Shown piece after piece: positions 4,171 through 20,625 of a stretch of DNA of 64,000 nucleotides. Each line of letters starts with the position of its first letter. Within the stretch, counting starts at the first letter, position 1. The notes under the pieces were generated by a model. That model did no database searches. It had not been told where the DNA came from and saw only the letters and a list, made by a program, of their open reading frames with translations. The translations under genes were made by a program, and so were the position numbers. Origin of the DNA: Streptomyces sp. NBC_00224. GTDB taxonomy: Bacteria > Actinomycetota > Actinomycetes > Streptomycetales > Streptomycetaceae. The DNA is taken from positions 1,984,001 to 2,048,000 of the forward strand of contig NZ_CP108106.1 in NCBI RefSeq assembly GCF_041435195.1, written 5' to 3'.

Positions 4171-4474
4171 ACGGCCACCCTATGCGGTGCCGCGCCGCTG
4201 ACCTGCTGGTCGCCCTGGCGCCCCGGAGCTGGAGACCGAGATCCCCGGTCCGCCGCAGGGGTACGGGGTGACCGATGTCACCCGGCCCGGCGCGACGGCA
4301 CGCCTGGGCGGACGTCCGTCGGCACACGCGGGCCACGGCCGGGTGGACGTCAGTTGAACCTTCACCTGCTCCTCCCCCTTGATCCTCAACTCTCCCTATA
4401 GCCACCTCCCCCAGGCTGCGGGGAGGAGTCGTGCCACAGCAGAGAGTGCGCCGGTTCGTAAGGAGCAACCCGAT
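4171..4474. other. Divergent intergenic region upstream of the biosynthetic operon
   Basis: About 300 nt without a convincing gene, lying between the YigZ gene (minus) and the first gene of the plus-strand operon. The minus-strand TAGGGT hexamer at 4177-4182 is a candidate -10 for YigZ. On the plus side there are TTGAAC (4354-4359), TTGATC (4379-4384) and TATAGC (4397-4402), but no pair has correct spacing, so I do not call a promoter. An AAGGAG ribosome site at 4459-4464 belongs to the next gene. A TTG/ATG-started in-frame extension from 4379 exists but lacks a ribosome site. Confidence 0.4.
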
Positions 4475-5125
4475 ATGTCATCAAACCTCCCGTTATTCTC
4501 CGTCCTCCTGGGAGGCGATTACGCGGGCAAGTCATCGGCGATGTCCCGGCTCGCGGGAGACCCGGAGCCAGTCCGGGTCGTCTCGGTCGACGATCACTTC
4601 CTCACCGACCGGCACGCGCTGATCGGCCGGCTGCGGCGCGACGTGGTCAAGGACGTCGCCGCCCCGGACGGCGCCTACTCGCCGGACTTCATGGCCAGCA
4701 TGCTCCAGACCGCCGTGGTGCACCTGCGCGACCAGCTCCTCACGGCCGCGGACGCCGCCGACGGACAGCCGCTCCTCGTGGACTCGTACTACTACAAGAT
4801 CCTCGCGAAGTGCCGCCTCGCGGGAGTGCGCGAGAACCCCATGTACGACTGGTGGCGCTCGTTCCCGCAGCCGCGCCACGTCGTCTACCTCAAGGTCTCG
4901 CCGCACGAGGCCTGGCGCCGCAGCCGCCGCGGGACCCGGCTCAACTCCCTCGAACACTACGGCGAGCGGCCGAACCGGACGTCGTTCGAGCGGTACCAGA
5001 CCGACCTGGAGAAGCTGATGTGGGACGAGATCCGGTATCTCCCGGTGACAGTCGTGGAGCAGCAGAACTCCCCCGAGCGGACCGCCGACGCCGTACGGGA
5101 GGCGGTCTGTCATGACTACGTCTGA
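4475..5125 (+). CDS. P-loop kinase-like protein, first gene of the biosynthetic operon
   Basis: 216 aa with an N-terminal Walker A motif GGDYAGKSS (residues 9-17), followed by VRVVSVDDHFL and a central DSYYYK segment. The layout resembles thymidylate-kinase-like small-molecule kinases, including an Arg-rich lid region (EAWRRSRRGTRLN) and a C-terminal TFERYQ helix. The substrate cannot be read from sequence. I chose the ATG preceded by AAGGAG with 10 nt spacing over the longer frame. The downstream GH3 gene starts inside its last codons, so the two are coupled. A role in phosphorylating a pathway intermediate or in self-resistance is inference only. Confidence 0.8.
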   Translation: MSSNLPLFSVLLGGDYAGKSSAMSRLAGDPEPVRVVSVDDHFLTDRHALIGRLRRDVVKDVAAPDGAYSPDFMASMLQTAVVHLRDQLLTAADAADGQPLLVDSYYYKILAKCRLAGVRENPMYDWWRSFPQPRHVVYLKVSPHEAWRRSRRGTRLNSLEHYGERPNRTSFERYQTDLEKLMWDEIRYLPVTVVEQQNSPERTADAVREAVCHDYV

Positions 5126-6812
5126 GACTCGACAGGACGGCCTGTCCTGGGCCGATCCGGAGCGGATCGAGCGGTACCGGTCGCGGGTGTTCACCGAGCG
5201 GGCCCGGCTGCGGGCCGCGTTCGCGGACCCGGCCGGACATCAGCGGCGGGTCCTGGAGGACCTGCTCGCCTTCAACGCCGACACCGCCTACGGGCGCGCC
5301 CACGGCTTCGCCCGGATCCGCACGCTGGACGACTGGCGCAAGGCCGTACCCGTCCAGGACTACAGCGGCCTCGCCCCCTGGATCGAACGGGCCGCGGCAG
5401 GCGAGGACAACGTCCTCACCGCCGACAAACCCACCGTCTTCTTCACCAGCAGCGGCAGCACCGGCGCCCACAAGAAGATCCCCGTCACCCCGCAGTTCAT
5501 GGGCACCACCTTCTTCCCGTTCTACTACGCCGCCTGGGCGCCGCTCATCGAGCACTTTCCCGACGTCCTCGCGCGCCCGGACGCGGTACTGAACCTCAAG
5601 CACGACCCGATCGCCGCGCCGCCGACCACGGCCTCCGGCAAGCCCCATGTGGGGGCCAGCCAGGTCGACTTCGGTGCCAGGTTCGGCGAGCCGCTCTCGG
5701 CGGAGCCCGGCACGAGTGCCCCTTGGGCCACCCTTCCGGTGCCGGTGGCGGCCGACGCGCATCTGGAGAAGATGTATCTGCGGCTGCGCCTGGCCGTCGA
5801 GAGCGATGTGCGCTGTGTCATCGGGATCAACCCGGCGATGGTCGCCGCCCTGCCGTACCAGTTGAACCTGTGGTGGGAGCGCATCGTCCAAGAAGTGCGC
5901 GACGGCACCCTGGGCGGGCACCCCTACCGCTCCCCCAACCCTGATCGCGCCCGCGAACTCGACCGCCTCGCCGCGCACTTCGGGCGGGTCCGGCCCGCCC
6001 ACATCTGGCCGCGGATGCGGGCCCTGTTCTGCTGGACCACCGGCCTCGCCTCGCTCTATCTGCCGCGGCTGCGCGAGGAGTTCGGGCCGGGGGTCACCCT
6101 GCTCCCCGCCCCGGTCGCCGCATCGGAGGGCCCCACGGGCGTCGCCCTCGACCGGCACCCGACCGCCGGAAGCCTCGTCGTCACCGCCTCCGTCTACGAG
6201 TTCGCCGACGCCGACACCGACCTCACTCCGGACACACCCACCCTCCAGCCCCACGAGCTTGAGGTGGGCCGCGACTACCACACCGTCTTCAGCCACATCG
6301 GCGGCCTCTACCGCTACGCCGTCGGCGATGTCGTACGGGTCGTCGACCGCGAGGAAGGCGTACCCCGCCTCGAATACACCGGCCGCAGCAGCCTCTCCGA
6401 CGCCGTCGGGGAACGTCTGCGCGACGCCCACGTCCTGCGCGCCCTCAGCACCGCCCTGGCCGCAGGCGGCCTCGAACTGCGCAACACCGCCTGCCGCTTC
6501 ACCCACGACCAACATGGCACCCCCGCCTACCAGTTCGCCCTCGCCTCAGCCACCCCGTGGAGCGGAGACGAAACCGAAGCGTTCCTGAAGCGCCTCGACC
6601 ACGCCCTCGCCCACGAATCCCCCGGCTATCGCCACGCCCGCACCCAGCACCGCCTGGGCGCCCCCACCGGCCTCCATCTGCATCCCGACGCCTTCCTCGA
6701 CGACTGGCACGCCGCCGTCGCCACCGGCGTCCGCCCCACCCAGGTCAAAGACCGGCTCTTCCGCCAAGACCCGGCGCAATGGCAACGACTCACCGACGGG
6801 AACGGTTCCTGA
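5112..6812 (+). CDS. GH3 family acyl-adenylating amide synthetase
   Basis: 566 aa, full length for the GH3 (auxin-responsive/JAR1) family of the ANL superfamily. These enzymes activate a carboxylate with ATP and couple it to an amino acid or amine. The phosphate-binding loop FFTSSGSTGAHKKIPV is near residues 112-127. A second nucleotide motif lies in APVAASEGPTG, and the C-terminal LYRYAVGDVVRV corresponds to the family YRxGD motif. It overlaps the upstream gene by 14 nt. In a cluster with two methyltransferases and a monooxygenase it is a likely amide- or ester-forming step. Acid and amine substrates are unknown. Plant hormone metabolism is not implied. Confidence 0.88.
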   Translation: MTTSETRQDGLSWADPERIERYRSRVFTERARLRAAFADPAGHQRRVLEDLLAFNADTAYGRAHGFARIRTLDDWRKAVPVQDYSGLAPWIERAAAGEDNVLTADKPTVFFTSSGSTGAHKKIPVTPQFMGTTFFPFYYAAWAPLIEHFPDVLARPDAVLNLKHDPIAAPPTTASGKPHVGASQVDFGARFGEPLSAEPGTSAPWATLPVPVAADAHLEKMYLRLRLAVESDVRCVIGINPAMVAALPYQLNLWWERIVQEVRDGTLGGHPYRSPNPDRARELDRLAAHFGRVRPAHIWPRMRALFCWTTGLASLYLPRLREEFGPGVTLLPAPVAASEGPTGVALDRHPTAGSLVVTASVYEFADADTDLTPDTPTLQPHELEVGRDYHTVFSHIGGLYRYAVGDVVRVVDREEGVPRLEYTGRSSLSDAVGERLRDAHVLRALSTALAAGGLELRNTACRFTHDQHGTPAYQFALASATPWSGDETEAFLKRLDHALAHESPGYRHARTQHRLGAPTGLHLHPDAFLDDWHAAVATGVRPTQVKDRLFRQDPAQWQRLTDGNGS

Positions 6813-6891: not shown

Positions 6892-7749
6892 GTGACCGAG
6901 TTGCTCGACGCCGTCGAACGCACCGCCCTGCTCACCGCTGCCCTGCGTGCCGCGGAGACGCGTCGGCCCGACCGCATCTACCAGGATCCGTACGCGGACG
7001 CGCTCTGCGGTGAGATCGGGCCGGAGCTGCTCGCGGAGATCCGGCAGGCGACGTTCCCGGCGGACGCCTCGCGTACGCTCCCCAGCACCCCCGACTACAA
7101 CGCCATCCGCACCCGGTTCTTCGACGACTACCTCCAGGAGGCCGCCCGCGAGCCCGGGATGCGGCAGATCGTGCTCGCCCCGGCCGGGATGGACTCGCGC
7201 GCCTACCGGCTGGACTGGCCCGAGGGGCTGCGCTACTACGAGGTCGACCGGCCCGCGGTGCTCGCGCACAAGAAGGACCGGCTGGAGGGCGTCAGCCCGC
7301 GGACCGACCACCGTACGGTCGCCGTGGACCTCACCTCTCCCGACTGGGAGGACGACCTCCAGGAGGCGGGGTACGACCCGGCCCTGCCGTCCACCTGGCT
7401 GCTCGAAGGGCTGCTGTACTACATCCCCGAGCAGGACACCCACCGCATCCTGCGCCGCGTCGCCGACTTCTCGGCGCCCGGCAGCCGGATCGCCGCCGAC
7501 CTGGTCAACTCCGCCGCTCTGACGCTCCCTCATATGCGCGGTCTGCTGGACATCTTCGCCGGCTGGGGCTGCCCCTGGCTGTTCGGTACCGACGAGCCCG
7601 AGGCGCTCTTCGACAGCTTCGGGTTCTCCGTCGAGGCGCTGCAACCCGGCGAACCAGGCGCGGACTTCGGCCGCTGGCCGGACCCGGTGCCGCCGCGGCA
7701 CGAGGCGAACGTGCGCCGGGTGTTCTTCATCCACGGTCGGCGGCGCTGA
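6892..7749 (+). CDS. SAM-dependent O-methyltransferase of the leucine carboxyl methyltransferase type
   Basis: 285 aa, similar in plan to the actinobacterial TIGR00027/Ppm1-like methyltransferases. Its start resembles that family (VERTALLTAALRAAET, then RIYQDPYADAL), it has RFFDDYL, and the SAM-binding segment QIVLAPAGMDSRAYRLDW stands where the family has a GxGxDxRAxRL motif. YYEVDRP and WLLEGLLYYIPEQ follow, as in the family. The GTG start has an AAGGAG site upstream. The next ORF begins 1 nt after the stop. It probably methylates a carboxylate or hydroxyl of the cluster product. Confidence 0.87.
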   Translation: MTELLDAVERTALLTAALRAAETRRPDRIYQDPYADALCGEIGPELLAEIRQATFPADASRTLPSTPDYNAIRTRFFDDYLQEAAREPGMRQIVLAPAGMDSRAYRLDWPEGLRYYEVDRPAVLAHKKDRLEGVSPRTDHRTVAVDLTSPDWEDDLQEAGYDPALPSTWLLEGLLYYIPEQDTHRILRRVADFSAPGSRIAADLVNSAALTLPHMRGLLDIFAGWGCPWLFGTDEPEALFDSFGFSVEALQPGEPGADFGRWPDPVPPRHEANVRRVFFIHGRRR

Positions 7750-7750
7750 G

Positions 7751-9175
7751 ATGTCGACAGCTTTGGTCGTGGGAGGCAGTGTCGCGGGTCTGGCCTCCGC
7801 GCTCGCGCTGGCCGGTTCCGGTCGGCAGGTCGTCGTCCTGGAGCGCTCCGCCCCACCGCCCCGGGGCGCGATGGCCGACCTGCACAGCCGCTGGCAGCGG
7901 CCGACCGTGCCGCAGGCCCAGCAGTCCCACACGCTGACCTCGCTCGGCGTGCGCACGCTGCGCACGCGCGCGCCCGAGGTCCTGGAGCGGCTGCTCGCCG
8001 CCGGTGCCCCACTGTTCGACCTCACGCGCGCGTTGCCGCAGGGTGCGACCGACCGGGCGCGCGAGGTGGGCGACGACGAACTGGTCGCGCTGGGCTGCCG
8101 CCGCACCACGCTCGAACTCGTCCTGTACCGGACGGTCGAGGCCTTGCCGCAGGTGGAGATCCGGCACGGCACGACGGTACGCGGGCTGCGGCTGAGCCCC
8201 GACCGGCAGTCCGTGCGCGGCGTGGTCACGACGGACGGCGCGCACCTGCCCGCCGATGTGGTCGTGGACGCCACCGGCCGCCGCGCGGCCGCCCGCGGCT
8301 GGCTCACGGATGCCGGGGTTCCGGTGGCGGGGGATCTGACCAGCCCGTCCGGACTGCGCGGCTTCACCCGGTTCTACCGGCTCAGAAGCAGTTCCCTGCC
8401 CGGGCCGCTCAACCGGGGCCACGCCGCCGGGGACATCTGGGACCACTACGCGGGCGTGCTGCACCCCGGCGACGCGGGCACCTTCGCGATCGCCCTGGGC
8501 ACGCTGCCCGGCGACACGGAACTGGACCGGCTGCGGCACGCCGAGGACTTCACCGCCGTCGCGCGCGCCACTCCGGGCCTCACCGGCTGGCTCGACGACG
8601 CCGTCAGCGCGCCCATCTCCGCCGTCCATGTGATCGGCAGCCCGGCCAACGCGCTGCGCGCCACCGCCGTGCACCCGCCCGTGGCGGGCCTGTTCCCGGT
8701 CGGGGACGCCGCCTGTGTCACCAACCCGCTCTACGGGCGCGGAATGTCGCTGGCGCTCGCGCAGGCCTTCGGCCTCGCCGACGCGCTGGCCGCACGCCCC
8801 GCGACGAGACGGACCGAGGCCGCCGCCGGGTTCGCCGACGCGTTCCTGCGGCCGTGGTACGAGCACGCGGCGAGCACCGACCGGGAGCGGATCGGGCGCT
8901 GGAGCGCCGTCGTGCACGGCCGGCCCCTGCCGCCCGCCTACGCCGGCTGCCCCGACACGTCCATACGGGCGGCCGCCGCCCAGGACGGCACGGTGTGGCG
9001 CGGGCTGATGCGGGTCCTGATGGGACTGAGCACTCCGGACGAGGTGTTCGGGGACGAGAAGTTCCGGCACCGCGTGGCCCAGGCGCCCCGTGGCGCGGTC
9101 CCGGAGAGCACCGCGACCATGCCCCGCCAGAAGCTCCTCGGTGCCCTCGTGGCGGCCGAAGGAGGCCGGTCGTGA
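7751..9175 (+). CDS. FAD-dependent monooxygenase/epoxidase-like oxidoreductase
   Basis: 474 aa flavoprotein with an N-terminal Rossmann motif VVGGSVAGLASALALAGSG and the acidic strand end VVVLERS, then a central VVVDATGRRAA (DG-type motif) and the C-terminal GDAACVTNPLYGRGMSLAL flavin-binding segment (GD motif). This is the p-hydroxybenzoate-hydroxylase fold. The QSHTLTSLG stretch after the first domain is typical of Streptomyces epoxidase/hydroxylase relatives. No membrane segment is seen. It lies directly after the methyltransferase, and its end is followed by a short coupled ORF leading to the synthetase-like gene. The oxidised substrate is unknown. Confidence 0.88.
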   Translation: MSTALVVGGSVAGLASALALAGSGRQVVVLERSAPPPRGAMADLHSRWQRPTVPQAQQSHTLTSLGVRTLRTRAPEVLERLLAAGAPLFDLTRALPQGATDRAREVGDDELVALGCRRTTLELVLYRTVEALPQVEIRHGTTVRGLRLSPDRQSVRGVVTTDGAHLPADVVVDATGRRAAARGWLTDAGVPVAGDLTSPSGLRGFTRFYRLRSSSLPGPLNRGHAAGDIWDHYAGVLHPGDAGTFAIALGTLPGDTELDRLRHAEDFTAVARATPGLTGWLDDAVSAPISAVHVIGSPANALRATAVHPPVAGLFPVGDAACVTNPLYGRGMSLALAQAFGLADALAARPATRRTEAAAGFADAFLRPWYEHAASTDRERIGRWSAVVHGRPLPPAYAGCPDTSIRAAAAQDGTVWRGLMRVLMGLSTPDEVFGDEKFRHRVAQAPRGAVPESTATMPRQKLLGALVAAEGGRS

Positions 9176-9198: not shown

Positions 9199-9252
9199 GT
9201 GACACCGTCCTGTCGCCGTGCCCCTTCCTCGGTGGAAGGAGCGCGCCCGTGA
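9199..9252 (+). CDS. Possible 17-codon coupling ORF
   Basis: GTG-started mini-ORF reading VTPSCRRAPSSVEGARP, preceded by a clear GGAAGGAG ribosome site. It ends in a TGA that overlaps the GTG of the next gene (GTGA). It fills most of the gap between the monooxygenase and the synthetase-like gene. It could be a translational relay, a relic of a longer N-terminus, or chance. Confidence 0.25.
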   Translation: MTPSCRRAPSSVEGARP

Positions 9253-10415
9253 CCGCCCCTGCCGTCGTCTCCACGCCCCGGCCCCGGCCGGTGGCGGGAG
9301 CGCGCCGCCGGGTGCTGCTGGCTCCGATCACGGTCACCCCCTCCAAACCGCTCGCCCCGTCCCACCTCAAGGGTCTGCTCTGGACGGACGTGATGTACCG
9401 GGCGACCGCGTGTCTGGCGGATGTCGACTACCGCTACAGCCACACGACGTACCACCTCACCGAACAGACCCTGGGGTTCTGGGAGTTCCTCGACCGCACG
9501 CACGGGGACACCGGCTACGCGGAACTGACCGAGGACGACATCGGCTCGCTGTACGTGCGTCACCGCGCTGCGGCGGACCGGGTCCCGGCGGCCGCGTTAC
9601 GCCCGTACGCCGACGCCGTCGAGCACCACGGCTGGGTGCACCCGGCCGCCACCCGGGTCCTCGAACTGTGGCGGGGGCACTACGCCCGGCTCGGCCTGTA
9701 CGACCCCGGGCTCCTCGCCCACCAGCCGCCCGGCCTCGGCCTGGAGGAGATGCTGGAGCGGCTACGCGCGCGTGGCCTGTGCCTGGACCACCGGGGGCTC
9801 GGCGGCCCGGTCTACCTCGATCTGACGCGGCACGGCCTGCCGCTGCGGCAGATCGTCACCGCCGACAGCCGCCCCAACTACCTCGCCTGCGCACTGCGCG
9901 AACTCCTGCCGCTCGCGCCGCACTACGACGAGGTGGTGTTCCTGTACGACCGTGAGCTCGACCCGGACTACCAGCTCCTCGCGCGCGTGCTCGCGCCGCT
10001 GGGGCCGGTCGTGCACCGGGTTCCGGTCGGGCGCGTCCCGGTGGACGGCGAGATCCGCTCGGCCCGCGAAGGCGGCTGGCGGGGCCTGGACGCGGCCGCG
10101 CTGATCGAGGCGGCGTCCGCCGACCACGACGAGGCGGCGATCCGGCTCGGCATGCGGCTCTACTTCATCGCGACGCTCGGACCCGGCCAGGCCCAGTCCC
10201 ATCGGTCCGAACTGCTGCACCAGTGTCTGAAGCGCGCCGGCCGCCTGCTGGCCGGCGCGCCCGCCACCGCCGAGCCGGGTCTGCCCGAACGGCTCGGCGT
10301 CCACCGCCGCGACCACACCTATGTGGACCCGTACCGGCTCACCACGAGCCTGCTCGCCCGGCGCCGCGCCGCGCCCGCGCGCGATCTGCTGGCGGAGGTG
10401 TTCCTGTGTCCCTGA
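9249..10415 (+). CDS. Putative class I aminoacyl-tRNA-synthetase-like enzyme of the cluster
   Basis: 388 aa. I do not recognise a named family, but the N-terminus looks like a class I synthetase nucleotide-binding core: a beta strand (RVLLAPITV) is followed by PSKPLAPSHLKG and WTDVMYRATA. The spacing from His39 to Asp47, with DVxxR after it, matches the second His of HIGH and the DVxxR helix of methionyl-tRNA synthetase. The first HIGH His is Ala36. Near residues 265-276 the segment VDGEIRSAREGG stands where VxGxKMSKSxGN would be, followed by a helix and RLGMRLYFIATLG, as in the stem-contact region. No anticodon-binding domain is visible. The GTG is chosen because AAGGAG lies 8 nt upstream. 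A role in ATP-dependent amino acid activation (as in MshC) is inferred. Confidence 0.6.
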   Translation: MTAPAVVSTPRPRPVAGARRRVLLAPITVTPSKPLAPSHLKGLLWTDVMYRATACLADVDYRYSHTTYHLTEQTLGFWEFLDRTHGDTGYAELTEDDIGSLYVRHRAAADRVPAAALRPYADAVEHHGWVHPAATRVLELWRGHYARLGLYDPGLLAHQPPGLGLEEMLERLRARGLCLDHRGLGGPVYLDLTRHGLPLRQIVTADSRPNYLACALRELLPLAPHYDEVVFLYDRELDPDYQLLARVLAPLGPVVHRVPVGRVPVDGEIRSAREGGWRGLDAAALIEAASADHDEAAIRLGMRLYFIATLGPGQAQSHRSELLHQCLKRAGRLLAGAPATAEPGLPERLGVHRRDHTYVDPYRLTTSLLARRRAAPARDLLAEVFLCP

Positions 10416-10498
10416 CCGGGCAACTGCTCCCCTCAGCAGGCGTTCCCGCGCCCCCGAGCGGGCAACGGCCGCCCTCGGAGGTGGTCCCGTGCCGCTGA
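10406..10498 (+). CDS. Possible 30-codon coupling ORF
   Basis: GTG-started ORF reading VSLTGQLLPSAGV and then a Pro-rich tail ending in PCR. It has a GGAGG site 7 nt upstream, inside the end of the synthetase-like gene. It starts 10 nt before that gene's stop and ends 10 nt after the next gene's GTG, so ribosomes could pass through all three frames. No homologue is recognised. It may only be a relay. Confidence 0.22.
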   Translation: MSLTGQLLPSAGVPAPPSGQRPPSEVVPCR

Positions 10499-11340
10499 CC
10501 CAGCGACGGCTGCACGACGAGGCGTTCCGGCGGTTGCGGGAGGTGCGGCCCGAACTGGCCGACGCCGAGGGCGAGTCGGATCTCGCCGCGCTGCTGGCGG
10601 CGCGCACCCGGGTCGCCGAGCGGCCGGATGCCGACGCCGTCCAGGCGGTGGCGGTCGTGCGCCACTTCGACCCCGCGGCCTGGATCCGTGACGCGTCCGC
10701 CTTCGCGCTCGGGCTCGCGCCCGAGACGGCGGCGGCCTGGCGGCGCTCATTCACCCGAACGGTGTTCCTGGCCGGGAACCCCGCGAACCTGCTGGGCCGT
10801 TACTCATTCGACTGCCTGGCCGAGGACGGGTCGGTCGGCTGGTGCGGACCGGCACCGGCCGAGAGCAGCGCGGGGCTGCGCCGCCTGCTCAAGCTGTTCC
10901 TGTCCACAGCCGCGTTCCCGGTGGGCCCGCCGCGAACGGTCACGGTCCCGTCCCCGACCGCCAGTCGGGGTGACTCCGGGGCGGGGCGGCAGGCCCCGAC
11001 ACCGGGGCCCGGCGCCGGACCGCTGCCGCGCGGCGCCGCCCCGCCGCGATCCTCCACGCCGCGACCCGGCCCCCCGCCGAGGGCCGGGGTCCACCGCGAC
11101 CTCTATGTGGCCGCTTCGGGTGTTCCCGTGCCCGAGGCGCTCGTCCACCTCAACCACCTGGTGGTCGAGGCGGCTCTGGACGGCCTGATCACGCCGGGAG
11201 ACCGGCTGACCCTGCGCTCCGTCCCGAGCCTGACCGGCGCCACCGCGCCCTTCGCCGCGCTCCGCGTCGATGTCGACCGCACCCGTCCCGACCGGCTGCG
11301 CGCCTTTGCCGCACTGACCGAGGAGACTCCCGATGACTGA
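10489..11340 (+). CDS. Cluster protein of unknown family
   Basis: 283 aa, family not recognised. An N-terminal helical part (residues 1-60) leads to a compact alpha/beta region with FTRTVFLAGNPANLLGRYSFDCL. Residues about 160-200 form a Pro/Gly/Arg-rich low-complexity linker. The C-terminal part resumes as HRDLYVAASGVPVPEALVHLNHLVVEAALDG and ends EETPDD. No membrane segment, metal motif or cofactor motif is evident. The GTG start has GGAGGTGG upstream. Its end overlaps the next ATG by 8 nt (ATGACTGA). Its position directly after the synthetase-like gene suggests a partner in the same step, but that is a guess. Confidence 0.65.
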   Translation: MPLTQRRLHDEAFRRLREVRPELADAEGESDLAALLAARTRVAERPDADAVQAVAVVRHFDPAAWIRDASAFALGLAPETAAAWRRSFTRTVFLAGNPANLLGRYSFDCLAEDGSVGWCGPAPAESSAGLRRLLKLFLSTAAFPVGPPRTVTVPSPTASRGDSGAGRQAPTPGPGAGPLPRGAAPPRSSTPRPGPPPRAGVHRDLYVAASGVPVPEALVHLNHLVVEAALDGLITPGDRLTLRSVPSLTGATAPFAALRVDVDRTRPDRLRAFAALTEETPDD

Positions 11341-11986
11341 CCGCACCACCCTTCCCACCGGCAGCGTCCCGGGCCCGCCGCCCGTCCGCCTGGGCATCCA
11401 CGGCTCGCCCGATCTCGCCGCCGCGATCATCCGCGCGGCGGGCCGCGACGAGAGCGAGGTCGAGCTGGTCGGGTACGACGTGGCCGACCCGTTCCACGGG
11501 CTGCGGGCCAAGGAACTGGACGTCATGATCGTCAAGTACGGGCTGCGGGAGCCGGACCTCGCGGTGAGCCGCCCCGTCGCCCTCGACCCGCGCGCGGTGA
11601 TCGTCGGCGCCCACCACCCGCTCGCCACGCACACGTCCGTGTCGGTGGAGGAGGTGGCCGCCTACGAGGGGTTCCGCTGCCCCGGCTCCTTCCCGGAGTA
11701 CGTGTGGGACGACGTGGTGCCGCCCCGCACCCCGAAGGGCCGCAGGATCCGGCGCGCGTACGACATGGGCACGGTGAAGGGCCTGATGGGGACGCTCTCC
11801 GGGACCGACGCCGTCCATCTGACGTTCCAGTCCCTGGAGGCCATCGCGCCGGCCCGGATGAAGGTGATCCCGATCTCCGATCTGCCGCCCGCGCCGGTCG
11901 CCCTGGCCTGGCTGCGGGACCCCGAACCGGCCGCGCACACCGCCAGGTTCATCGCGGACGCCGAGAGCGGGAGCACGGCGCGATGA
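11333..11986 (+). CDS. Orphan LysR-type effector-binding domain without helix-turn-helix
   Basis: 217 aa that reads as a LysR substrate-binding domain: VRLGIHGSPDLAAAIIRAAG at the start, then LRAKELDVMIVKYGL, PLATHTSVSVEEVAAYEGF and a TVKGLMGTLSGTDAVHLTF hinge-like segment. The N-terminal 18 residues are a Pro/Thr-rich tail, and no winged helix is encoded in frame upstream. It cannot bind DNA as a normal LysR regulator. It may sense an intermediate, act with another regulator, or be a recruited binding protein. It is coupled on both sides: an 8 nt overlap upstream and ATGA with the hydrolase downstream. Confidence 0.75.
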   Translation: MTDRTTLPTGSVPGPPPVRLGIHGSPDLAAAIIRAAGRDESEVELVGYDVADPFHGLRAKELDVMIVKYGLREPDLAVSRPVALDPRAVIVGAHHPLATHTSVSVEEVAAYEGFRCPGSFPEYVWDDVVPPRTPKGRRIRRAYDMGTVKGLMGTLSGTDAVHLTFQSLEAIAPARMKVIPISDLPPAPVALAWLRDPEPAAHTARFIADAESGSTAR

Positions 11987-12777
11987 CGGCGGCGACGAAC
12001 GGCCGGGTCCCCGTGGTCCTGCTGCACGCGCTCTCCCTCGACTCGTCGATGTGGGACACGCACCGGGAGGCTCTGGAGGGGCGCGGCCACCTGGTCGTCG
12101 CGCCCGACCAGCGCGGCTTCGGGGCCACGCCACTCGGCAACGAGCCGCCGTCGCTGGACACGGTCGCGGACGACCTGGCCCGCGAGCTGGACGCGCGGGG
12201 CATCGAGCGCGCGGTGCTGGTCGGGGTGTCGATGGGCGGCTATGCGGCGATGGCGTTCCTGCGCCGGCATCCCGGTCGGGCGCTGGCGCTCGCCCTGCTG
12301 TCCACGCGGGCGGACATGGACGACGAGGCCGCGCGCACGGCGCGGGAGGGGTTTCTGGCCCTCATCGAGGACCCGGTGAAGGGCCCGGCGGTCATCGAGT
12401 CGACCGCGCCCCGACTGGTCGGCGCCACCACGCGCGCCGAGCGCCCGCAGGTGCTGGCCCGGCTCCGTACCGTCGCGGCCGGAGCCTCTCCCGCGTCGCT
12501 GGCCTGGGCCCAGCGGGCGATCGCGGCGCGGCCGGACGCCCTGGACGTCCTGCGGGCCACCGACATCCCGGCCGTGGTGATCGTCGGAGAGGAGGACGAG
12601 CTGGTGTCGCAGGCGGACACGCGCGCGATGGTCGAGGCCCTGCCCCGGGGGCGCCTCGTGGTCGTCCCGGGCTCGGGACATCTGCCGCCGCTGGAGGCAC
12701 CGGAAGTGATCCAGGACGAACTCGACGCCCTCCTGGCCGAACTGGACGCGCTCACGGCCGAGGTGGATTCGCACTGA
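11983..12777 (+). CDS. Alpha/beta hydrolase of the cluster
   Basis: 264 aa alpha/beta hydrolase resembling 3-oxoadipate enol-lactonases and haloperoxidase-type hydrolases. The oxyanion region is VVLLHALSLDSSMW, the nucleophile elbow is GVSMGGYAA (Ser), the acid lies in VIVGEEDELV, and the His in GSGHLPPLE. The start ATG overlaps the upstream stop (ATGA), and the stop overlaps the next ATG (TGATG). It could release, lactonise or cleave a product ester; the substrate is unknown. Confidence 0.87.
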   Translation: MTAATNGRVPVVLLHALSLDSSMWDTHREALEGRGHLVVAPDQRGFGATPLGNEPPSLDTVADDLARELDARGIERAVLVGVSMGGYAAMAFLRRHPGRALALALLSTRADMDDEAARTAREGFLALIEDPVKGPAVIESTAPRLVGATTRAERPQVLARLRTVAAGASPASLAWAQRAIAARPDALDVLRATDIPAVVIVGEEDELVSQADTRAMVEALPRGRLVVVPGSGHLPPLEAPEVIQDELDALLAELDALTAEVDSH

Positions 12778-13673
12778 TGCTGACCGAAGACCACCGGGCC
12801 TGGGGGTTCACCACCTCCACCGGCCTCGGTTTCACCCACCACACCATCGTCGACGCGCACTTCGACGCGTGCCGGGACGCCTATCTCGGCCTGCTCGGAC
12901 AGGCGGGCATACAGCCCGGCGCGCACGTCCTGGACGCGGGCTGCGGCGGCGGGGACTTCCTGCCGTGGCTGGCCGACCTGGTCGGCCCGCAGGGCCGCGT
13001 CTCGGCGGTGGACCTGGCCGAGGAGAACGCCGCGCTGGCCACCGAACGGCTGGCGCGGTGGTCCCCCGCCTGCCCGGTGGACGTCCGCCGCGCCGATCTG
13101 CTGGAACTCCCCTTCGCGGACGCCACGTTCGACGCCGTCTGGTGCGCGAACACCGTTCAGTACCTGAGCGACTCCGAACTGGCCCTCGCGCTGCGGGAGC
13201 TGCGGCGGGTGGTGCGGCCCGGCGGCACGATAGCGGTGAAGGACCTGGACGCCCAGCTGATCACGGCCCGGCCGACGGACCCGTATCTCTTCGCGGACTT
13301 CTTCCGCGCGGCCGGGCGGACTCCCGGCTATGCGGCCCAGCTCCTGCGCACCCGTGATCTGTACCGCCATCTGAAGGCCGCGGGCCTGACCGACGTGCGT
13401 CAACGGACCGTCCTGATCGAGCACTTCGCCCCGCTCACCCCGCAGGCCAGGGCGTTCTACGCCCCGACCTGTGCCCGGCTCGCGGAACAGGCCCTGGCGC
13501 TCGGGCTGAGCGAGGAATGGCGCCGCTTCGCGGACCCGGACGCCGCGGACCATCCGCTCGACGGGCCCGACGGATACATCAGCGAGGGCAATGTGCTGGC
13601 CGTCGGCGCCGTGCCCGGCGAGCGGGAATTCCAGGGGCCGGTCACTCGTTCTGCGGGAGAGGAGCACATCTAA
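12777..13673 (+). CDS. Class I SAM-dependent methyltransferase
   Basis: 298 aa. The SAM motif HVLDAGCGGGDFLPWLADL (motif I) is followed by VSAVDLAEENA, then RADLLELPFADATFDAVWCANTVQYL and LRELRRVVRPGGTIAVKDLD, a standard Methyltransf_11/25 layout. The C-terminal part is a substrate lid. The ATG shares its first base with the upstream stop codon, so translation is coupled. It is the last clear member of the operon and a second methyltransferase beside the one at 6892, which implies a doubly methylated product or two separate sites. Confidence 0.88.
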   Translation: MLTEDHRAWGFTTSTGLGFTHHTIVDAHFDACRDAYLGLLGQAGIQPGAHVLDAGCGGGDFLPWLADLVGPQGRVSAVDLAEENAALATERLARWSPACPVDVRRADLLELPFADATFDAVWCANTVQYLSDSELALALRELRRVVRPGGTIAVKDLDAQLITARPTDPYLFADFFRAAGRTPGYAAQLLRTRDLYRHLKAAGLTDVRQRTVLIEHFAPLTPQARAFYAPTCARLAEQALALGLSEEWRRFADPDAADHPLDGPDGYISEGNVLAVGAVPGEREFQGPVTRSAGEEHI

Positions 13674-13701
13674 CGGACCTGCGGTCCGCAGGAGGCACGG
13701 A

Positions 13702-14109
13702 GTGAACAGCGAGCAGGACACCATCCGCAGGATCCTGACCGGGACCGGGGACACCTGGGCGGTCGTGGGTCTGTCGTCCAACGAGCGCCGCGCGGCGTAC
13801 GGGGTGGCGGCGGTGCTGCAGCGGTACGGGAAGCGGATCGTGCCCGTGCACCCCAAGGCCGAGACGGTCCACGGCGAGCAGGGGTATCCGTCGCTGGACG
13901 CGATTCCGTTCAAGGTCGACGTGGTGGATGTGTTCGTGAACAGCGAGCTGGCCGGGGACGTGGCCGACCAGGCCGTGGCGGCCGGGGCCAAGGCGGTCTG
14001 GTTCCAGCTCGGGGTGATCGACGACGCGGCGTACGAGCGGACGCGGGCGGCGGGGCTGGACATGGTCATGGACCGGTGCCCGGCGATCGAGATACCCCAG
14101 CTGGGCTGA
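13702..14109 (+). CDS. CoA-binding domain protein (YccU type)
   Basis: 135 aa single-domain protein of the CoA-binding Rossmann family. It has TWAVVGLSSNERRAAYGVAAVLQRYG (nucleotide-binding start), IVPVHPKAETVHGEQGYPSL and VDVVDVFVNSELAGDVADQAV. The GTG start has GGAGG 7 nt upstream. It lies 28 nt after the methyltransferase and may ride on the same transcript, but the family is widespread and housekeeping-like, so membership in the pathway is uncertain. Confidence 0.87.
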   Translation: MNSEQDTIRRILTGTGDTWAVVGLSSNERRAAYGVAAVLQRYGKRIVPVHPKAETVHGEQGYPSLDAIPFKVDVVDVFVNSELAGDVADQAVAAGAKAVWFQLGVIDDAAYERTRAAGLDMVMDRCPAIEIPQLG

Positions 14110-14285
14110 AGCCCGCCCGGGGGCACGGAGGCCCGCACCCCGCGCACTACCAGCCGTGCCGCCGCACCACCGTCGGGTCGTACCCGACCTCCCGTCACAC
14201 CCCGTCGTCCGCTGTACCGGCCGCCCCGGCGCGCTCATACTGGCGCCAACCCCCAGCCCCCGAACGGACCCACGGGAGGCGCGCC

Positions 14286-15152
14286 TTGCCGCAGCTCATC
14301 CGTACCCCGGACGGCCGGAACCTGGCCGTCGAGAGCCGGGGGCACCCCCTGGGCAGGCCGGTGTTCCTGCTGCACGGCACGCCGGGGAGCCGGCACGGCC
14401 CGGCTCCCCGCAGCACCGTGCTCTACCGGATGGGCGTCCGCCTCATCACCTTCGACCGGCCGGGGTACGGGGACTCCGACCGGCGGCCGGGGCGCCGGGT
14501 GGTGCACGCGGCCCAGGACGTGGCGGCGATCGCCGACGCCCTGGGTATAGGCGAGTTCGCCGTGGTGGGGCGCTCCGGCGGCGCGCCGCACGCGCTGTCG
14601 TGTGCCGCGCGGCTTCCGGGGCGTACGGCCAGGGCGGTGGCGCTGGTACCGCTCGCGCCGCGCGACGCGGACGGCCTGGACTGGTTCGACGGCATGACCG
14701 AGGACAACGTCCGGGCGTACACGATCGCGGCGGGCGGCCCGGAGGCGGTGACGGCCGCTCTTGAGGTGCGGGCGGAGGAGATACGAGCGGATCCGAGGGC
14801 GACGGTCACCGCGATGCACGGCATGGTGCCGGAGCCGGACCGGGAGGTGCTGACCGACGCCGCGATCCGGGCGCTGCTCGTCCGCAACTTCGCGGAGGGG
14901 CTGCGCTGTTCGGCCGACGGATGGGTCGACGACGTGCTGGCGCTGAGCTCGCCCTGGGAGTTCCGGCCGGAGGAGATCCGTACGCCGGTGCTGCTGTGGC
15001 ACGGCGAGCAGGACGTCTTCGCACCCGCGCAGCACACCCGGTGGCTGGCCGAGCGGATCCCCGGGGCGCGCCTGGAAGTACCCCCGGACGCCGCGCACTT
15101 CGGCGCGCTCGCGGTGTTCACCCGCGCCCTGAGCTGGGCGGCCCGCACCTAG
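14286..15152 (+). CDS. Alpha/beta hydrolase
   Basis: 288 aa. Motifs: VFLLHGTPGSRHG (oxyanion hole), FDRPGYGDSDRRPG, VGRSGGAPHAL (nucleophile Ser in GRSGG), LLWHGEQDVFAP (acid) and PPDAAHFGAL (His). This is the proline-iminopeptidase/epoxide-hydrolase-like branch common in Streptomyces. I chose the TTG because GGGAGG lies 6 nt upstream; the longer frame has no ribosome site and an unlike composition. It converges with the fxsT gene and is separated from the preceding operon by about 175 nt. Confidence 0.85.
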   Translation: MPQLIRTPDGRNLAVESRGHPLGRPVFLLHGTPGSRHGPAPRSTVLYRMGVRLITFDRPGYGDSDRRPGRRVVHAAQDVAAIADALGIGEFAVVGRSGGAPHALSCAARLPGRTARAVALVPLAPRDADGLDWFDGMTEDNVRAYTIAAGGPEAVTAALEVRAEEIRADPRATVTAMHGMVPEPDREVLTDAAIRALLVRNFAEGLRCSADGWVDDVLALSSPWEFRPEEIRTPVLLWHGEQDVFAPAQHTRWLAERIPGARLEVPPDAAHFGALAVFTRALSWAART

Positions 15153-15208: not shown

Positions 15209-18200
15209 CTAGACCGGCTGGATTTCGATGTCCCGGTCCAGCCGCTGCCAGGAGCGGGCCGCCTCCGCGATCGGGTGGTCCACGCCCAGGCGTTCGGCGG
15301 CCGGTTCGATCACCGCCGCGCGCATTCCGGCCGCGTCGTCGCCCCGGTCCGCCGCCCGCAGGGTGACCGCCAGGTTCGACCGGCAGACCAGCACGTCCGG
15401 ATGCCACGGGCCGAGCTTGTCGAGCAGCCCCTCCAGCGCGGTGTACTCCCACCGCTCGGCGAGGTCCAGCCGGCCCAGGTCTCCGTACACGTTCGCCAGA
15501 TTGACCGCCGCGCACAGCGCGAAGGGGTGCTGGGGGCCGAGCGCCTGCTCCAGCCGCTCGCGTACCTCCTCGGCGTCCGCGACCGCCTCCTCGGCGCCTC
15601 CGGTCGCCCGCAGATAGACGACCGCGTTGGCCCGGCACGCCAGGCTGTACGGGTGGGACTCACCCAGCGTCCCCCGGTATCCGTGCAGCATCTGCCGCGC
15701 CAGGTCGAGGGCGTGCGCCGGGTCGCCGGTGGCCGCGAGGTCGGCGGCCAGACCGACCCCGCAGGCGAGGGTGTCGGGCGAGGCGGGCCCGTACCGGTCG
15801 CGGAACCGCTCGTACGTCTCCCCCGTCAGCCGCATCGCCTCGTGCGGATGCCCGGCCCTGCGCAGCGAGACCGCCAGGCTCTTGGCGGCGCGCAGCACCT
15901 CGGGCGCGTGCGGGTCCAGGACCCGGCGCAGAGCGTCCACGACCTCCCGCAGGACCTCCACCGACACCGCGTACTCACCGGTCTCCCGCAGGTCCCCGGC
16001 GAGGTTCATCTTGGTGACCAGGGTGTAGGGATGGTCGTCGCCGAGCAGCATGCCGCGCCGCTCCACGGTCCGCTCGTCGAGCCGCCGCGCGGCCTCGCTG
16101 TCCCCGGTCAGCCGGTAGTCGATCGCGAGGTTGTGCGCGGCGATCAGGGTGCGCCGGTGGGCCTCGCCGAAGAGGCGGCGCATGCCCCGGTAGACCCACA
16201 GGTCGCGTTCGAGCGCCTCGGTGAACCTGCCGACGGCGCGCAGATCGGCGGCCAGGCTGCCGGTGACGATCAGCACGCTGGGGTGGTCGTCGGCGGGATG
16301 GTCGGCGTGGAAGAGCCGCAGCTGGCGGGCGAGGGTGTCCTCGTCCATCGTCAGCGCGTCCTGGTAACGGCCCTGCGCCCGCAGGGCGTTGGCCAGTTCG
16401 AAGCGGATGTTGAGGGTCTGCAGCGCGTCCTCGCCGAGCCGGCTGGTCCAGATCCGGTCCAGCTGGGCGCCGAAGACCCGGGCGCTCTCCAGTTCGCCGC
16501 GCCGCAGGAGGTAGCGGATCCGGTCGACCATCAGCTCACGGGCCTTGGCGTCGTCGCTGTCCGCGATGCCGGAGGCGTTCAGATGCGGCCAGATCAGCTC
16601 GAAGGCGGGCCAGCTCTTGGGGTCGTTCACCGGGTCGTCCCGGTCGACGCCCTCGGTCGGCCGCGCCTGCGCCAGGATGCGGTGGACCACGCTCTTGGTC
16701 TCGGCCTGCTCCTCGGCGCTGAGCGCGTCGCGCACGGCCGCCTGGACCAGGCGGTGCACCTGGATGCTGCTGTCCGCCGGGTCCACCTTGGCGAGGGCGA
16801 ACCGGTTCAGCGTCTGGATGACCCGGCCCAGCATGTACCGCTCGCGCAGATCGGCGTCGTACGGGAGCAGCGCGTCGAACATCGCGTCGCTGCCGATGAG
16901 CCGCATGGAGACGGGTTCGGCGGAGAAGAACGAGCAGATCTCCAGGAGGCGCACCGCGGCGCTCGACTCCTCGCGCAGCCTGCGGATGGAGATGGCCCAG
17001 GTCGCCCCGAACCTCAGCCCGTACCCCTCCGGTGTGCCGAGCGAGAGGACCGTGGTGCTCTGCTCCGCGAGCTGGCGCAGATAGGCGTCCACCGGCGTCG
17101 CCGTCTCGGCGAGCCAGGCCGCCGCCACCTCCACGGCCAGCGGCAGGTCGCCCACCGCGTCGGCGACCAGGTCGGCGTCCTCGGGCGGCAGTCCCGCCAC
17201 CCGCCAGGTCAGGTGCTCCACGCTCTCGAACCGGGTGAAGACCTCGACCTGGGTGGTCTCCACCCGGTTGGTGGCCGGTTTGTTGCGGCAGGTGGCGAGC
17301 AGATGCCCGTAGACGGGGCCGGGCAGCGGCCCGATGGGCGGGGGCAGCCGGTGCAGCGCCTCGTCCGGGTCCTCCACGTTGTCGAAGATCAGCAGCCAGC
17401 GCGGGTAGCGCTCGCCGCGCCACAGCTCCTGGAGGGCCGCCATGGCCGCCTCGGCCACCACGTCCCCCGTCCGCAGGCCCATCTCGGCGGCGAGCTGCGC
17501 CAGCGAGGCCACCACCAGGTCGGGCCGCTCCGCCTCGATCCACCACACCAGGTCGTAGTCGGCCCGGAAGCGGTGCGCGTACTCAAGCGCGACCTGTGTC
17601 TTGCCCACGCCGCCGAGTCCGTACAGGACCTGCGGCAGGCGCTGTGCGGAGCGGCTGTCGCCGCGCAGCTGGTCGCGCACCCGGTCGAGGAGGTCGGTGC
17701 GGCCGGTGAACCAGCTGTTGCGCGGCCGTACGTTCCAGATCCGGGGCACGTTCCCGGGGAAGCGGGGCCGGTCGGGGGCGCACGGGAGCGCGGCGGCGGC
17801 CTCGCTCCGGCCCAGCGCGCCGAGCAGCGCGGCCGCCGCCTCGGCCTCGTCCACGCGCACCAGGTCGACCGCGCGCAAGCCGCCCGGCGGCGGTGTGAGC
17901 CGTACGTCGCCGACGCGCACGGGCAGCACCTGACGGCGGCCGCCGGCCCGGTCCGGGGCGGGTCCGCTGTCCCACAGTCCGCGTCCCGCACGGGACTTGA
18001 GGTAGGGCGGGGAGGCGATGTGCAGGACGCGGTGGGCGCCGTCCTCGCCGGACTCCGGCACCGTCAGGTCGGACCGGGGGTCGCGGACGTCCACCGGGAA
18101 AGTGCGGAAGCCCGCGGCGCCGAGCACGGCGGACAGCCAGTCCACCCACATCCGGTCCTCGGACACGTGGTTGAGCACGATGTTCGCGGGCGAGGTGGGC

Positions 18201-19183
18201 CTGCGCCGGGTGAAGGCGGCGACATGGGCGAGCCGCAGCGACTCGTCGATCGGCGGCAGCCCGGTGACCTGCCCGTGGGTGAGCACCGAGGTGAGCCGCT
18301 CGCAGGCGGCGAGCAGGGAGCTGCCGAGGTTGGGCGGGTCGCCGAAGGTCGCCAGGACCTCCTCGTAGGCGTAGAAGGGCCGGTACGGGATCTCCACCGT
18401 GCCCCAGTAGTTGTCGGCGGCCTCGCCCGTCAGACCGCTGGGGAGGCCTTCGAAGCACTCCCTGGCGAGCGCCCGCCCGGCGTCGGCCTTCTCCTTCTCG
18501 CCCTCGTCGATACGGGTCGGCACGGGCAGGATGCGGATGTTCCGCTCCTGGTAGCGCTCCTCGATGTACCGGGCGACGGCCGAGGCGCCGTCGATGCTCT
18601 GGTCGCTCAGGGTGAAGCAGACGACGAGGACCTGGGGCATCTGGACCGTGCAGATGTCGGCGATGTCGCTGAGTCCGGTCCGGCTGTCGATCAGGGTGAA
18701 GTCGTAGTGGCGGCGCATGTCGTCGCCCATGGCGTCGAAGAACTGGCCGCCGCCGGAGTGCTCGTAGAAGTGGTCCCAGTCCATCCGGCCCACGACGGAG
18801 GAGTAGTCGCGGTTGCGGCGGCCCGCCGAGAGGAAGTCCAGGCTGCCGCCGCTGGGGAAGGACCAGTCGAGGGTGACGGAGTGCGGGCGGACGCGCGCGT
18901 AGGCGCGGTGCCAGTCCGGGGTGCGCTCGCCGGGCCGCCGGGCCTCCTCCTGGTACTCGGTGATCAGGTTGATCAGGCCCGGAGTGGCCTCCAGATCACG
19001 CAGGTTGAGGAAGGGGTGGAAGAACCGGTGCAGGCCCGGCGCCTCCAGGTCCCAGTCGACGGCGAGCACCCGGTAGCCGTTGGCCGCCAGGATCCAGGCG
19101 CAGTTGGCGAGCGCCATCGTGCGTCCGGTGCCGCCCTTGTACGAGTAGAACGTGATGACGGTCCCGTCACGGTTCTCGGCCAT
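15209..19183 (-). CDS. fxsT: FxsT: MinD-like/NB-ARC/TPR protein of the FxSxx-COOH system
   Basis: 1324 aa multidomain protein. The N-terminus is a ParA/MinD-like ATPase with a deviant Walker A (YSYKGGTGRTMALAN, residues 13-27) and VLAVDWDLEAPGLHRFF. A toll-like or linker region follows at about residues 330-430. An NB-ARC STAND ATPase domain has its P-loop GLGGVGKTQVALEYAHRF near residue 520 and LLIFDNVEDPDEAL as Walker B. The C-terminal 450 residues are tetratricopeptide repeats of the NLR-associated type (ALRAQGRYQDALTMDEDTL and similar). The order matches FxsT of the radical-SAM FxsA/B/C loci. Its start overlaps the end of fxsC by 17 nt. Its role is unknown; signalling or assembly is likely. 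Confidence 0.88.
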   Translation of the reverse strand: MAENRDGTVITFYSYKGGTGRTMALANCAWILAANGYRVLAVDWDLEAPGLHRFFHPFLNLRDLEATPGLINLITEYQEEARRPGERTPDWHRAYARVRPHSVTLDWSFPSGGSLDFLSAGRRNRDYSSVVGRMDWDHFYEHSGGGQFFDAMGDDMRRHYDFTLIDSRTGLSDIADICTVQMPQVLVVCFTLSDQSIDGASAVARYIEERYQERNIRILPVPTRIDEGEKEKADAGRALARECFEGLPSGLTGEAADNYWGTVEIPYRPFYAYEEVLATFGDPPNLGSSLLAACERLTSVLTHGQVTGLPPIDESLRLAHVAAFTRRRPTSPANIVLNHVSEDRMWVDWLSAVLGAAGFRTFPVDVRDPRSDLTVPESGEDGAHRVLHIASPPYLKSRAGRGLWDSGPAPDRAGGRRQVLPVRVGDVRLTPPPGGLRAVDLVRVDEAEAAAALLGALGRSEAAAALPCAPDRPRFPGNVPRIWNVRPRNSWFTGRTDLLDRVRDQLRGDSRSAQRLPQVLYGLGGVGKTQVALEYAHRFRADYDLVWWIEAERPDLVVASLAQLAAEMGLRTGDVVAEAAMAALQELWRGERYPRWLLIFDNVEDPDEALHRLPPPIGPLPGPVYGHLLATCRNKPATNRVETTQVEVFTRFESVEHLTWRVAGLPPEDADLVADAVGDLPLAVEVAAAWLAETATPVDAYLRQLAEQSTTVLSLGTPEGYGLRFGATWAISIRRLREESSAAVRLLEICSFFSAEPVSMRLIGSDAMFDALLPYDADLRERYMLGRVIQTLNRFALAKVDPADSSIQVHRLVQAAVRDALSAEEQAETKSVVHRILAQARPTEGVDRDDPVNDPKSWPAFELIWPHLNASGIADSDDAKARELMVDRIRYLLRRGELESARVFGAQLDRIWTSRLGEDALQTLNIRFELANALRAQGRYQDALTMDEDTLARQLRLFHADHPADDHPSVLIVTGSLAADLRAVGRFTEALERDLWVYRGMRRLFGEAHRRTLIAAHNLAIDYRLTGDSEAARRLDERTVERRGMLLGDDHPYTLVTKMNLAGDLRETGEYAVSVEVLREVVDALRRVLDPHAPEVLRAAKSLAVSLRRAGHPHEAMRLTGETYERFRDRYGPASPDTLACGVGLAADLAATGDPAHALDLARQMLHGYRGTLGESHPYSLACRANAVVYLRATGGAEEAVADAEEVRERLEQALGPQHPFALCAAVNLANVYGDLGRLDLAERWEYTALEGLLDKLGPWHPDVLVCRSNLAVTLRAADRGDDAAGMRAAVIEPAAERLGVDHPIAEAARSWQRLDRDIEIQPV

Positions 19184-20531
19184 CTGGGGGGCCCTCCACC
19201 TGCTCGGCCTTGCTCTTCCCGGCGGCGCGCTGTTCTCGCTGGTCCCCGGTGCGGCCGCGGGCCGGCCGGCCGAGCCCGACGCCGTCCGGCAGGACGTGGG
19301 GCAGCGGGCTGCCGGGCCCGGCCGGCCTGCCCGTGCGCGCGGCGCTCTCGTAGTGCCTGACCGCCGACCGGACCGCCCTGGGGAGTTCCTGGCTGAAGGC
19401 TTCCAGAGTAGGCAGCCCGCCGCCCTGCGTCAGGTGGCCGGGGCTCTGCCGCAGCCGCCTCGCGAGCACTTCGTCCGCGACATGGCGCAACTCGGCCTCG
19501 CGCGGGGGCGATTCGGGGTCGGCGCGGTTCCAGGGAACCATCACGCTGAGCCACGGGCGGGGCTCGGCGCAGAGCAGCCGCACCAGCTCCCGGTGGCGGG
19601 GCGAGTCCAGCGCCCAGCGGTCGAGCAGCAGCAGTCCGGGGGCGTCGGGCGGCCCCGGGCGCAGCAGCCGGTCGGCGCGGTCCTCGAACTCGGCGAGGCG
19701 CACCGCGTAGTTGAGGTTGACGACGAGGTCGGCGGTGTGGCGGGCGAGCGGCCGCGCGGACAGCGGGTGGTACGGATTCCAGTCGCTGGGCCGGGGGCCG
19801 TAGCAGTCGGGGCCGCGCCCGCGCGGCAGGCCGTCGCGGGAGCAGGCGAGGACAGTCACCTCCAGGTCGCGCCCGGGCCCGGGGGCCGCCCCGAAGGCGG
19901 AGGTGAGCGTCGCGTAGTCCTGGAGCGGGTCGCCGTCGGCCACCCGGGTCCGCTCCGCGACGCTGACGATGCGCTTGGCGAGCTGGTACACGGCGTGTTC
20001 GTAGTGGTCGCGCAGATAGCTGAGCTTGATCATCCCGTAGAAGCCCTCGTCGGCGTAGTCGTCGCCGAAGTCCGCGTGGTCGAACTTCAACCTGCGGGCG
20101 GGCTCGGGCAGTTGGTGCGGCAGTACGGGGATCCAGAGCGCGGGGATGATCGCCGGGGGCGAGCGGTGCTCGCTGCGCGACTGGTGGAGGGTGTCGCGCC
20201 CGGCGAACGCGAACCACTCCCGGCCGCACTGCTCGCTGAGGAAGTAGCGCGGCGAGTAGAGCGGTACGAAGACGCGGCAGTGCGCCAGCGCCTCGGTGAT
20301 CTGCCCCTGCCAGTCCTCGCCCGGGCGCACGTGCTGGTCCATGAACCCGGCGGGCACCCCGGCCGGGAGCGCGGTCAGCTGCATCACGTGCGCGGACAGG
20401 TCGCGGAAGAAGCGCTGCACCCAGAGGTCGGGGTCCTTGTCCCGGGGATCGTTCTTCGGCGTGTGCGCGTAGCTCAGGAAGAAGTACGGCCTCGGCTCGT
20501 GCCCCCCGCCCCGCGCGGCTCCGTGCGGCAC
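19167..20531 (-). CDS. fxsC: FxsC: TIR-like protein of the FxSxx-COOH system
   Basis: 454 aa. The N-terminal part is TIR-like: PYFFLSYAHTPKND, DLWVQRFFRDLSAHV, then a conserved EALAHCRVFVPLYSPRYFLSEQCGREWFAF block typical of TIR folds. The C-terminal part (FxsC C-terminal domain) contains LLLLDRWALDSPRHRELVRLL and WLSVMVPWNR. A GTG start is used. It lies between fxsB and fxsT in one transcript. Whether the TIR domain has NADase activity is not decidable by eye; a Glu is present in the SEQCGREW region. Confidence 0.85.
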   Translation of the reverse strand: MPHGAARGGGHEPRPYFFLSYAHTPKNDPRDKDPDLWVQRFFRDLSAHVMQLTALPAGVPAGFMDQHVRPGEDWQGQITEALAHCRVFVPLYSPRYFLSEQCGREWFAFAGRDTLHQSRSEHRSPPAIIPALWIPVLPHQLPEPARRLKFDHADFGDDYADEGFYGMIKLSYLRDHYEHAVYQLAKRIVSVAERTRVADGDPLQDYATLTSAFGAAPGPGRDLEVTVLACSRDGLPRGRGPDCYGPRPSDWNPYHPLSARPLARHTADLVVNLNYAVRLAEFEDRADRLLRPGPPDAPGLLLLDRWALDSPRHRELVRLLCAEPRPWLSVMVPWNRADPESPPREAELRHVADEVLARRLRQSPGHLTQGGGLPTLEAFSQELPRAVRSAVRHYESAARTGRPAGPGSPLPHVLPDGVGLGRPARGRTGDQREQRAAGKSKAEQVEGPPDGREP

Positions 20532-20625
20532 CGCTCCCTCCCGGTCCGAGTGGGTGGGTCCTCAGTGTAGAAAGCGAGCGATCCACGGCGGAACCGCTTG
20601 TACGCGCCGATTCGGGGGCGGTCGG

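Follow-up and report, generated by a model that had tools for sequence, protein, structure and literature searches.

A cut-down relative of arginyl-tRNA synthetase, by profile and predicted structure, in a recurring gene cassette of soil bacteria

The window analyzed here is a stretch of 64,000 nucleotides from Streptomyces sp. NBC_00224 (contig NZ_CP108106.1, positions 1,984,001 to 2,048,000 of the forward strand), and the gene of interest, at window positions 9249..10415 (+), encodes a protein of 388 amino acids (aa), referred to here as X. The initial annotation had described X as a degenerate class I aminoacyl-tRNA-synthetase-like enzyme inside a gene cluster. The open reading frame is intact, with 388 codons and a GTG start at 9249, and a Shine-Dalgarno-like GGAAGGAG was read directly at 9234..9241 (+), 7 nucleotides upstream of the start. 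The closest homologue (389 aa, 92% identity) starts at about the equal position. X is a real gene. As a single sequence, X had no match in Pfam, NCBIfam or the PDB. Judged by its sequence profile and predicted model, X is a cut-down relative of arginyl-tRNA synthetase (ArgRS), a stand-alone catalytic core of the ArgRS lineage, and it probably activates an acid other than arginine toward a small molecule.

X is contained in a same-strand (+) gene run from about 4.4 to 15.2 kilobases (kb) of the window. The partners of X were counted across loci: 71 X loci were found in genome contigs, and the 58 with at least 4.9 kb before X and at least 2.5 kb after it were used (L078, a fragment, was left out, and L077, in which X is apparently truncated, was included). 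The run begins with a thymidylate-kinase-like P-loop protein (4472..5125; Pfam E = 0.0038, below the cut-off; 55/58 loci), a GH3-family acyl-adenylate amide synthetase (5112..6812; E = 1.7e-46; 57/58) and an LCM/TIGR00027 S-adenosylmethionine (SAM)-dependent methyltransferase (6892..7749; Pfam and NCBIfam; 56/58), which we call core genes. An accessory oxidoreductase dependent on flavin adenine dinucleotide (7751..9175; 40/58) precedes X. Directly after X comes its partner, a DUF6182 protein (PF19680 by Pfam; 10489..11340), which adjoins X in all 58 loci. Three accessory genes follow, namely a LysR-substrate-domain protein (11333..11986; 40/58), an alpha/beta hydrolase (11983..12777; 38/58) and a class I SAM methyltransferase (12774..13673; 38/58). 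The run ends with two local additions, a coenzyme A (CoA)-binding protein (13591-14109; 1/58) and a second alpha/beta hydrolase (14076-15152; 2/58). Of the two matches to the second hydrolase, the one in L062 arises by cross-matching (28%) with the other hydrolase; both additions are also present in L008, whose flank was too short to count.

The LysR-substrate-domain protein has 217 aa and the Pfam scan gave no helix-turn-helix family for it; its role may be that of an enzyme or a ligand-binding protein and not that of a regulator. The cassette is adjoined by an FxSxx-COOH peptide system on the - strand (15209-23076), with an FxSxx TPR/AAA protein (15209-19183), a TIR-like FxsC (19167-20531) and an FxsB radical SAM maturase (20626-23076). 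An azoxy or valanimycin pathway (VlmA-like or seryl-tRNA-dependent) was considered and found no support in one literature search or in the Pfam scan. At L018 and L021 the core cassette lies amid genes that, by eye, look unrelated.

A protein database search with X as query found 452 proteins at E <= 0.001, of which the best 120 were listed. Distant members used as queries gave 222 and 158 matches (best 120 of each listed), and Bradyrhizobium, Variibacter, Rhodococcus and Nocardia were among the members listed in these searches. Where named, the listed homologues of X are hypothetical or uncharacterized proteins, with the exceptions of P0167, an AfsA fusion labeled as an A-factor hotdog domain, and P0209, one of whose two labels is DUF1800. 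The fusion of an AfsA hotdog domain to X was seen in 5 of 120 homologues listed in one of the searches with a distant member (P0167, P0179, P0185, P0186 and P0193, about 710 aa each), which suggests that, in one clade, X works on an AfsA-type reaction or next to one. Among genomes sampled from the window's order, 26 of 391 contained X (E <= 1e-5), and a narrower profile detected it in 4 of 296 from the class (E <= 0.001), its own genome being counted in both.

Conservation was read from an alignment of 135 sequences. Of 231 length-filtered homologues, 142 remained after filtering at 80% identity; nine of these were left out for brevity, and P0235 and P0236 were added. L006, L077 and L078 were excluded from protein alignments. 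Although identity to X falls as low as 38% in this set, 20 columns are invariant and, on this sequence evidence, X is not eroded. The HIGH-equivalent segment covers residues 30-51 (T-P-S-K-P-L-A-P-S-H-L-K-G-L-L-W-T-D-V-M-Y-R; 9336..9401, +), with the family consensus [TS]P[TS]KPLTP[ST]H. The second histidine of HIGH, which the initial annotation had noted, is His39, kept in 134 of 135 sequences; Lys33, just ahead of HIGH, is kept in 134 and Asp47 in all 135. The equivalent of the ArgRS amino-acid-binding helix lies at residues 206-218 (9864..9902, +) and retains Tyr211 in 133/135. The KMSKS-equivalent segment, residues 270-279 (RSAREGGWRG; 10056..10085, +), stands where the earlier reading had placed it: rSARhGGWqG of the X profile is aligned with FSGRKGTWVG of ArgRS. 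Arg273 and Gly275 are each present in 135/135 and Ser271 in 123/135, and 115 residues follow Arg273. SHLKGLLWTDVMYR is found in X, and the 135-sequence profile aligns it with a stretch of ArgRS.

The claim of a class I synthetase core held up in both comparisons that were made, with ArgRS best in each. A comparison of the X profile with a 30-sequence ArgRS profile gave a score of 62.3 and a probability of 93% over 279 colinear columns, while the other class I profiles scored 28.0 (CysRS), 28.4 (MetRS) and 19.8 (GluRS). No unrelated family matched strongly, the seven compared all scoring at most 22.0; the best of 20 column shuffles of X scored 25.5, and reversing the profile gave 15.5. Two sub-families of X (54 and 59 sequences, together 113 of the 135) reproduced the ArgRS match with scores of 53.5 and 47.3. 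Probabilities for CysRS were 2.7% with X and 1.0% and 0.5% with the sub-families, and those for MetRS were 2.8%, 0.7% and 4.2%. Kinship to CysRS or MetRS by sequence was rejected on the strength of this profile comparison, though the folds match. The predicted model of X has the class I HUP/Rossmann fold of the ArgRS subtype, and both Foldseek and VIA ranked ArgRS first for it. These data support the structural half of the proposal that X is a repurposed synthetase core.

The statement that X has no anticodon-binding domain was right as to reduction but not as to full absence. Residues 18-387 of the X model align structurally with 111-567 of ArgRS 6ao8, and a low-threshold profile alignment extends to ArgRS column 520 of 557. 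Since both alignments run near the end of ArgRS, the C-terminal domain is shortened and not cleanly removed.

Several observations weigh against the reading of X as an adenylating enzyme of the ArgRS lineage. The first histidine of HIGH is gone, being T in 125/135 sequences and A in X, and X does not have the both-histidine HIGH signature. The GxDH loop of ArgRS is unrecognizable in X, although D234 and D240 are invariant. With weak HIGH and GxD motifs, the use of ATP could have been lost. Fold alone separates ArgRS from CysRS poorly: some ArgRS entries, such as 1iq0 (19.2) and 5jld (17.5), rank below CysRS and MshC, and Foldseek superpositions are loose (for 2zue, TMq 0.59 and root-mean-square deviation 9.1). 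Also, the match of the 135-sequence profile to ArgRS is weak alone (E = 0.032, with unrelated proteins next at 0.040 and 0.054), the E-values of hhalign apply to single comparisons, and the structure and profile results draw on one alignment (Neff 2.9).

Residues 49-137 of the predicted model of the DUF6182 partner bear a resemblance in fold to peptidyl-tRNA hydrolase 2 (PTH2), with weak Foldseek E-values of 0.34-1.1 against Pth2-like entries. A profile comparison with 19 actinobacterial PTH2 domains scored 14.2, inside the range of 30 shuffles (maximum 21.5); PTH2 was missing among the 16 families matched by a 56-member DUF6182 profile, and no counterpart of the PTH2 signature G-K-x-x-x-Q-x-x-H was seen by eye in the DUF6182 consensus. 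For lack of profile support, DUF6182 was ruled against as a true Pth2. A hotdog fold, considered because of hotdog-like secondary structure and the AfsA hotdog fusions of X, was also rejected, as the listed rows of the PDB comparison included Pth2-like entries and no hotdog. A weak match of the DUF6182 profile to mitoribosomal mL65/MRPS30 (E = 0.016) was seen as well.

The pairing of X with DUF6182 extends to divergent loci. The DUF6182 profile finds a partner in 8 of 8 distant loci (L199 and L248-L254, with only the readable part covered at L250). At L250 the DUF6182 gene was missed by BLAST because most of it reads N, but what can be read is picked up by the profile (E = 1.4e-12). X, DUF6182 and GH3 stay together at L249 and L251-L254. 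A polyprenyl synthetase lies beside the set at L249. The set is followed by an HMG-CoA reductase/APH-type phosphotransferase fusion and a thymidylate-kinase-like protein at L252:3667-9351 and L253:3833-8623, the domains of this layout being verified for L252 alone. Upstream of the kin-GH3-LCM-X genes of L250 (L250:1786-10094) lie genes for a DeoC-type aldolase and for a dehydroquinate synthase II, a pair known from 3-amino-4-hydroxybenzoate pathways. L199 is a second type of X locus, in which a P-loop protein (44% identical), DUF6182, a HIT-like protein, X, AfsA and an acyl carrier protein are consecutive (L199:9633-15501). This locus also carries a ketosynthase-like gene and a PPDK-like protein; the ketosynthase and HIT labels are sequence-based assignments, and Pfam gave no match for the HIT-like protein. 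A UbiA label given by eye to one L199 gene was not borne out and is unused. No GH3 match was found at L199, so GH3 does not always accompany the P-loop protein, DUF6182 and X.

Two acidic positions, which in yeast ArgRS bind the guanidinium group of arginine, are lost in the X family, as judged by alignment only: the first-strand acid is replaced (the position of Ala25 is A in 130/135), and the later-helix Asp position, 215, is now A, T, L, V, M or F. Because both are lost, arginine is an unlikely substrate.

From the fold, lineage, conserved residues and gene set observed here, we infer all of the following chemical steps. X would form the acyl-adenylate of a non-arginine acid and then transfer the acyl group to an acceptor, a proposal to which we give about an even chance. 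ATP would bind between the HIGH-like (Lys33, His39) and KMSKS-like (Arg273, Gly275) segments, where a carboxylic acid other than arginine would be adenylated. The acyl group would then pass to the acceptor, aided by the constant partner DUF6182. By analogy with MshC and the MetRS-like hydrazine synthetases, the acceptor would probably be a small-molecule amine or hydroxyl. Where it is present, GH3 may make another, independent amide; a phosphorylated intermediate may come from the P-loop protein, and the LCM methyltransferase may cap a carboxylate. In a broader and rather speculative version, X and DUF6182 would together be a two-part machine for acyl transfer made from translation parts, the ArgRS core and a PTH2-like partner, with an acyl ester linked to RNA or adenylate, in a portable cassette (GH3, kinase, methyltransferase) placed in differing natural-product clusters. 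If this version were true, the machine would be an ArgRS-derived biosynthetic ligase, and the cassette would represent a type of biosynthetic gene cluster that may escape today's detection rules.

Other explanations must be weighed against adenylation and transfer to a small molecule. X might depend on tRNA, either charging an acceptor stem with its substrate or accepting the amino acid that a charged tRNA carries, with the Pth2-like DUF6182 binding or releasing an acyl-RNA ester; handling of such an ester by DUF6182 would mean that the cassette takes its building block from translation. We regard this as possible but on the doubtful side. The anticodon domain of X is shortened, DUF6182 has neither profile likeness to PTH2 nor its signature, and the Foldseek values are those given above. 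A dedicated tRNA gene was also sought, and the window holds none, while the 6 of 60 loci that carry one all have different tRNA genes.

It is less probable still that X is a binding or scaffold protein that has lost adenylation and that might, for instance, sense acyl groups or nucleotides or support GH3 or DUF6182 structurally. The replaced first histidine, the unrecognizable GxDH loop and the pairing with DUF6182 at every locus judged would all fit such a role. However, K33, H39, D47, R273, G275, D234 and D240 are strictly kept in nearly all 135 sequences, and a loss of catalysis is hard to accept because active-site residues are kept down to 38% identity. Finally, X could be a true but very divergent ArgRS, serving as a resistance copy or a spare, as both fold and profile place it nearest to ArgRS. 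This seems highly improbable: the Pfam scan gave no PF00750 match, the arginine-binding acid positions are lost in nearly all members, X has 388 aa compared to 528-614 aa in the 30 trimmed ArgRS sequences and a shortened C-terminal domain, and the host genome keeps a normal ArgRS separate from X (G000:C1:5274250-5275284).

In known systems, the nine-gene cassette corresponds to rubM2-rubP4 of the rubiginone (angucycline) cluster, listed in 2021 (PMC8487521). By gene order, size and strain, X equates to RubP2, named 'hypothetical protein' in that listing, and by position and size RubP1 is DUF6182 and RubP3 is GH3. In the available part of that paper, the genes in Streptomyces sp. CB02414 are read as an insertion with no function assigned, a copy in S. 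hundungensis is placed by the authors outside any recognizable cluster, and no functional test of rubM2-rubP4 was found. The literature search of open-licence papers found the cassette only there, nothing else for DUF6182 or GH3 cassettes, and no earlier ArgRS-derived biosynthetic ligase. L041 is the locus of the rubiginone strain; this strain already carries the cassette, and gene inactivation has been achieved in it. The gene set itself offers a marker with which the pathway and its product can be sought.

With ArgRS (PF00750), X shares the fold over 348 residues, the placement of HIGH and KMSKS, the helices after KMSKS and a colinear profile match; it differs in the loss of the first HIGH histidine and of the residues that align with the arginine-binding acids, in having no N-terminal domain and a shortened C-terminal domain, and in its biosynthetic-cassette setting. 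To our knowledge, few class I synthetases have turned biosynthetic, namely MshC (from CysRS), the hydrazine synthetases (from MetRS) and SbzA (from IleRS), and each led to unexpected chemistry. X would add ArgRS to these as a new lineage repurposed for biosynthesis. MshC, the mycothiol Cys:GlcN-Ins ligase, is related to CysRS, whereas X is not specifically CysRS-like (28.0 with a profile of CysRS, not of MshC, vs 62.3 with ArgRS). The origins of the hydrazine synthetases from MetRS and of SbzA from IleRS are described in the available parts of PMC11705231 and PMC12945691. The hydrazine synthetases combine MetRS-like and cupin domains, whereas the Pfam scan of ten cassette proteins found no cupin. 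Like PyrN and ForJ, in which a MetRS-like domain is described as repurposed to make an aminoacyl-adenylate (PMC11705231, available part), X has a class I synthetase domain in a natural-product setting, and the PyrN domain 9l8v appears in the Foldseek list of X.
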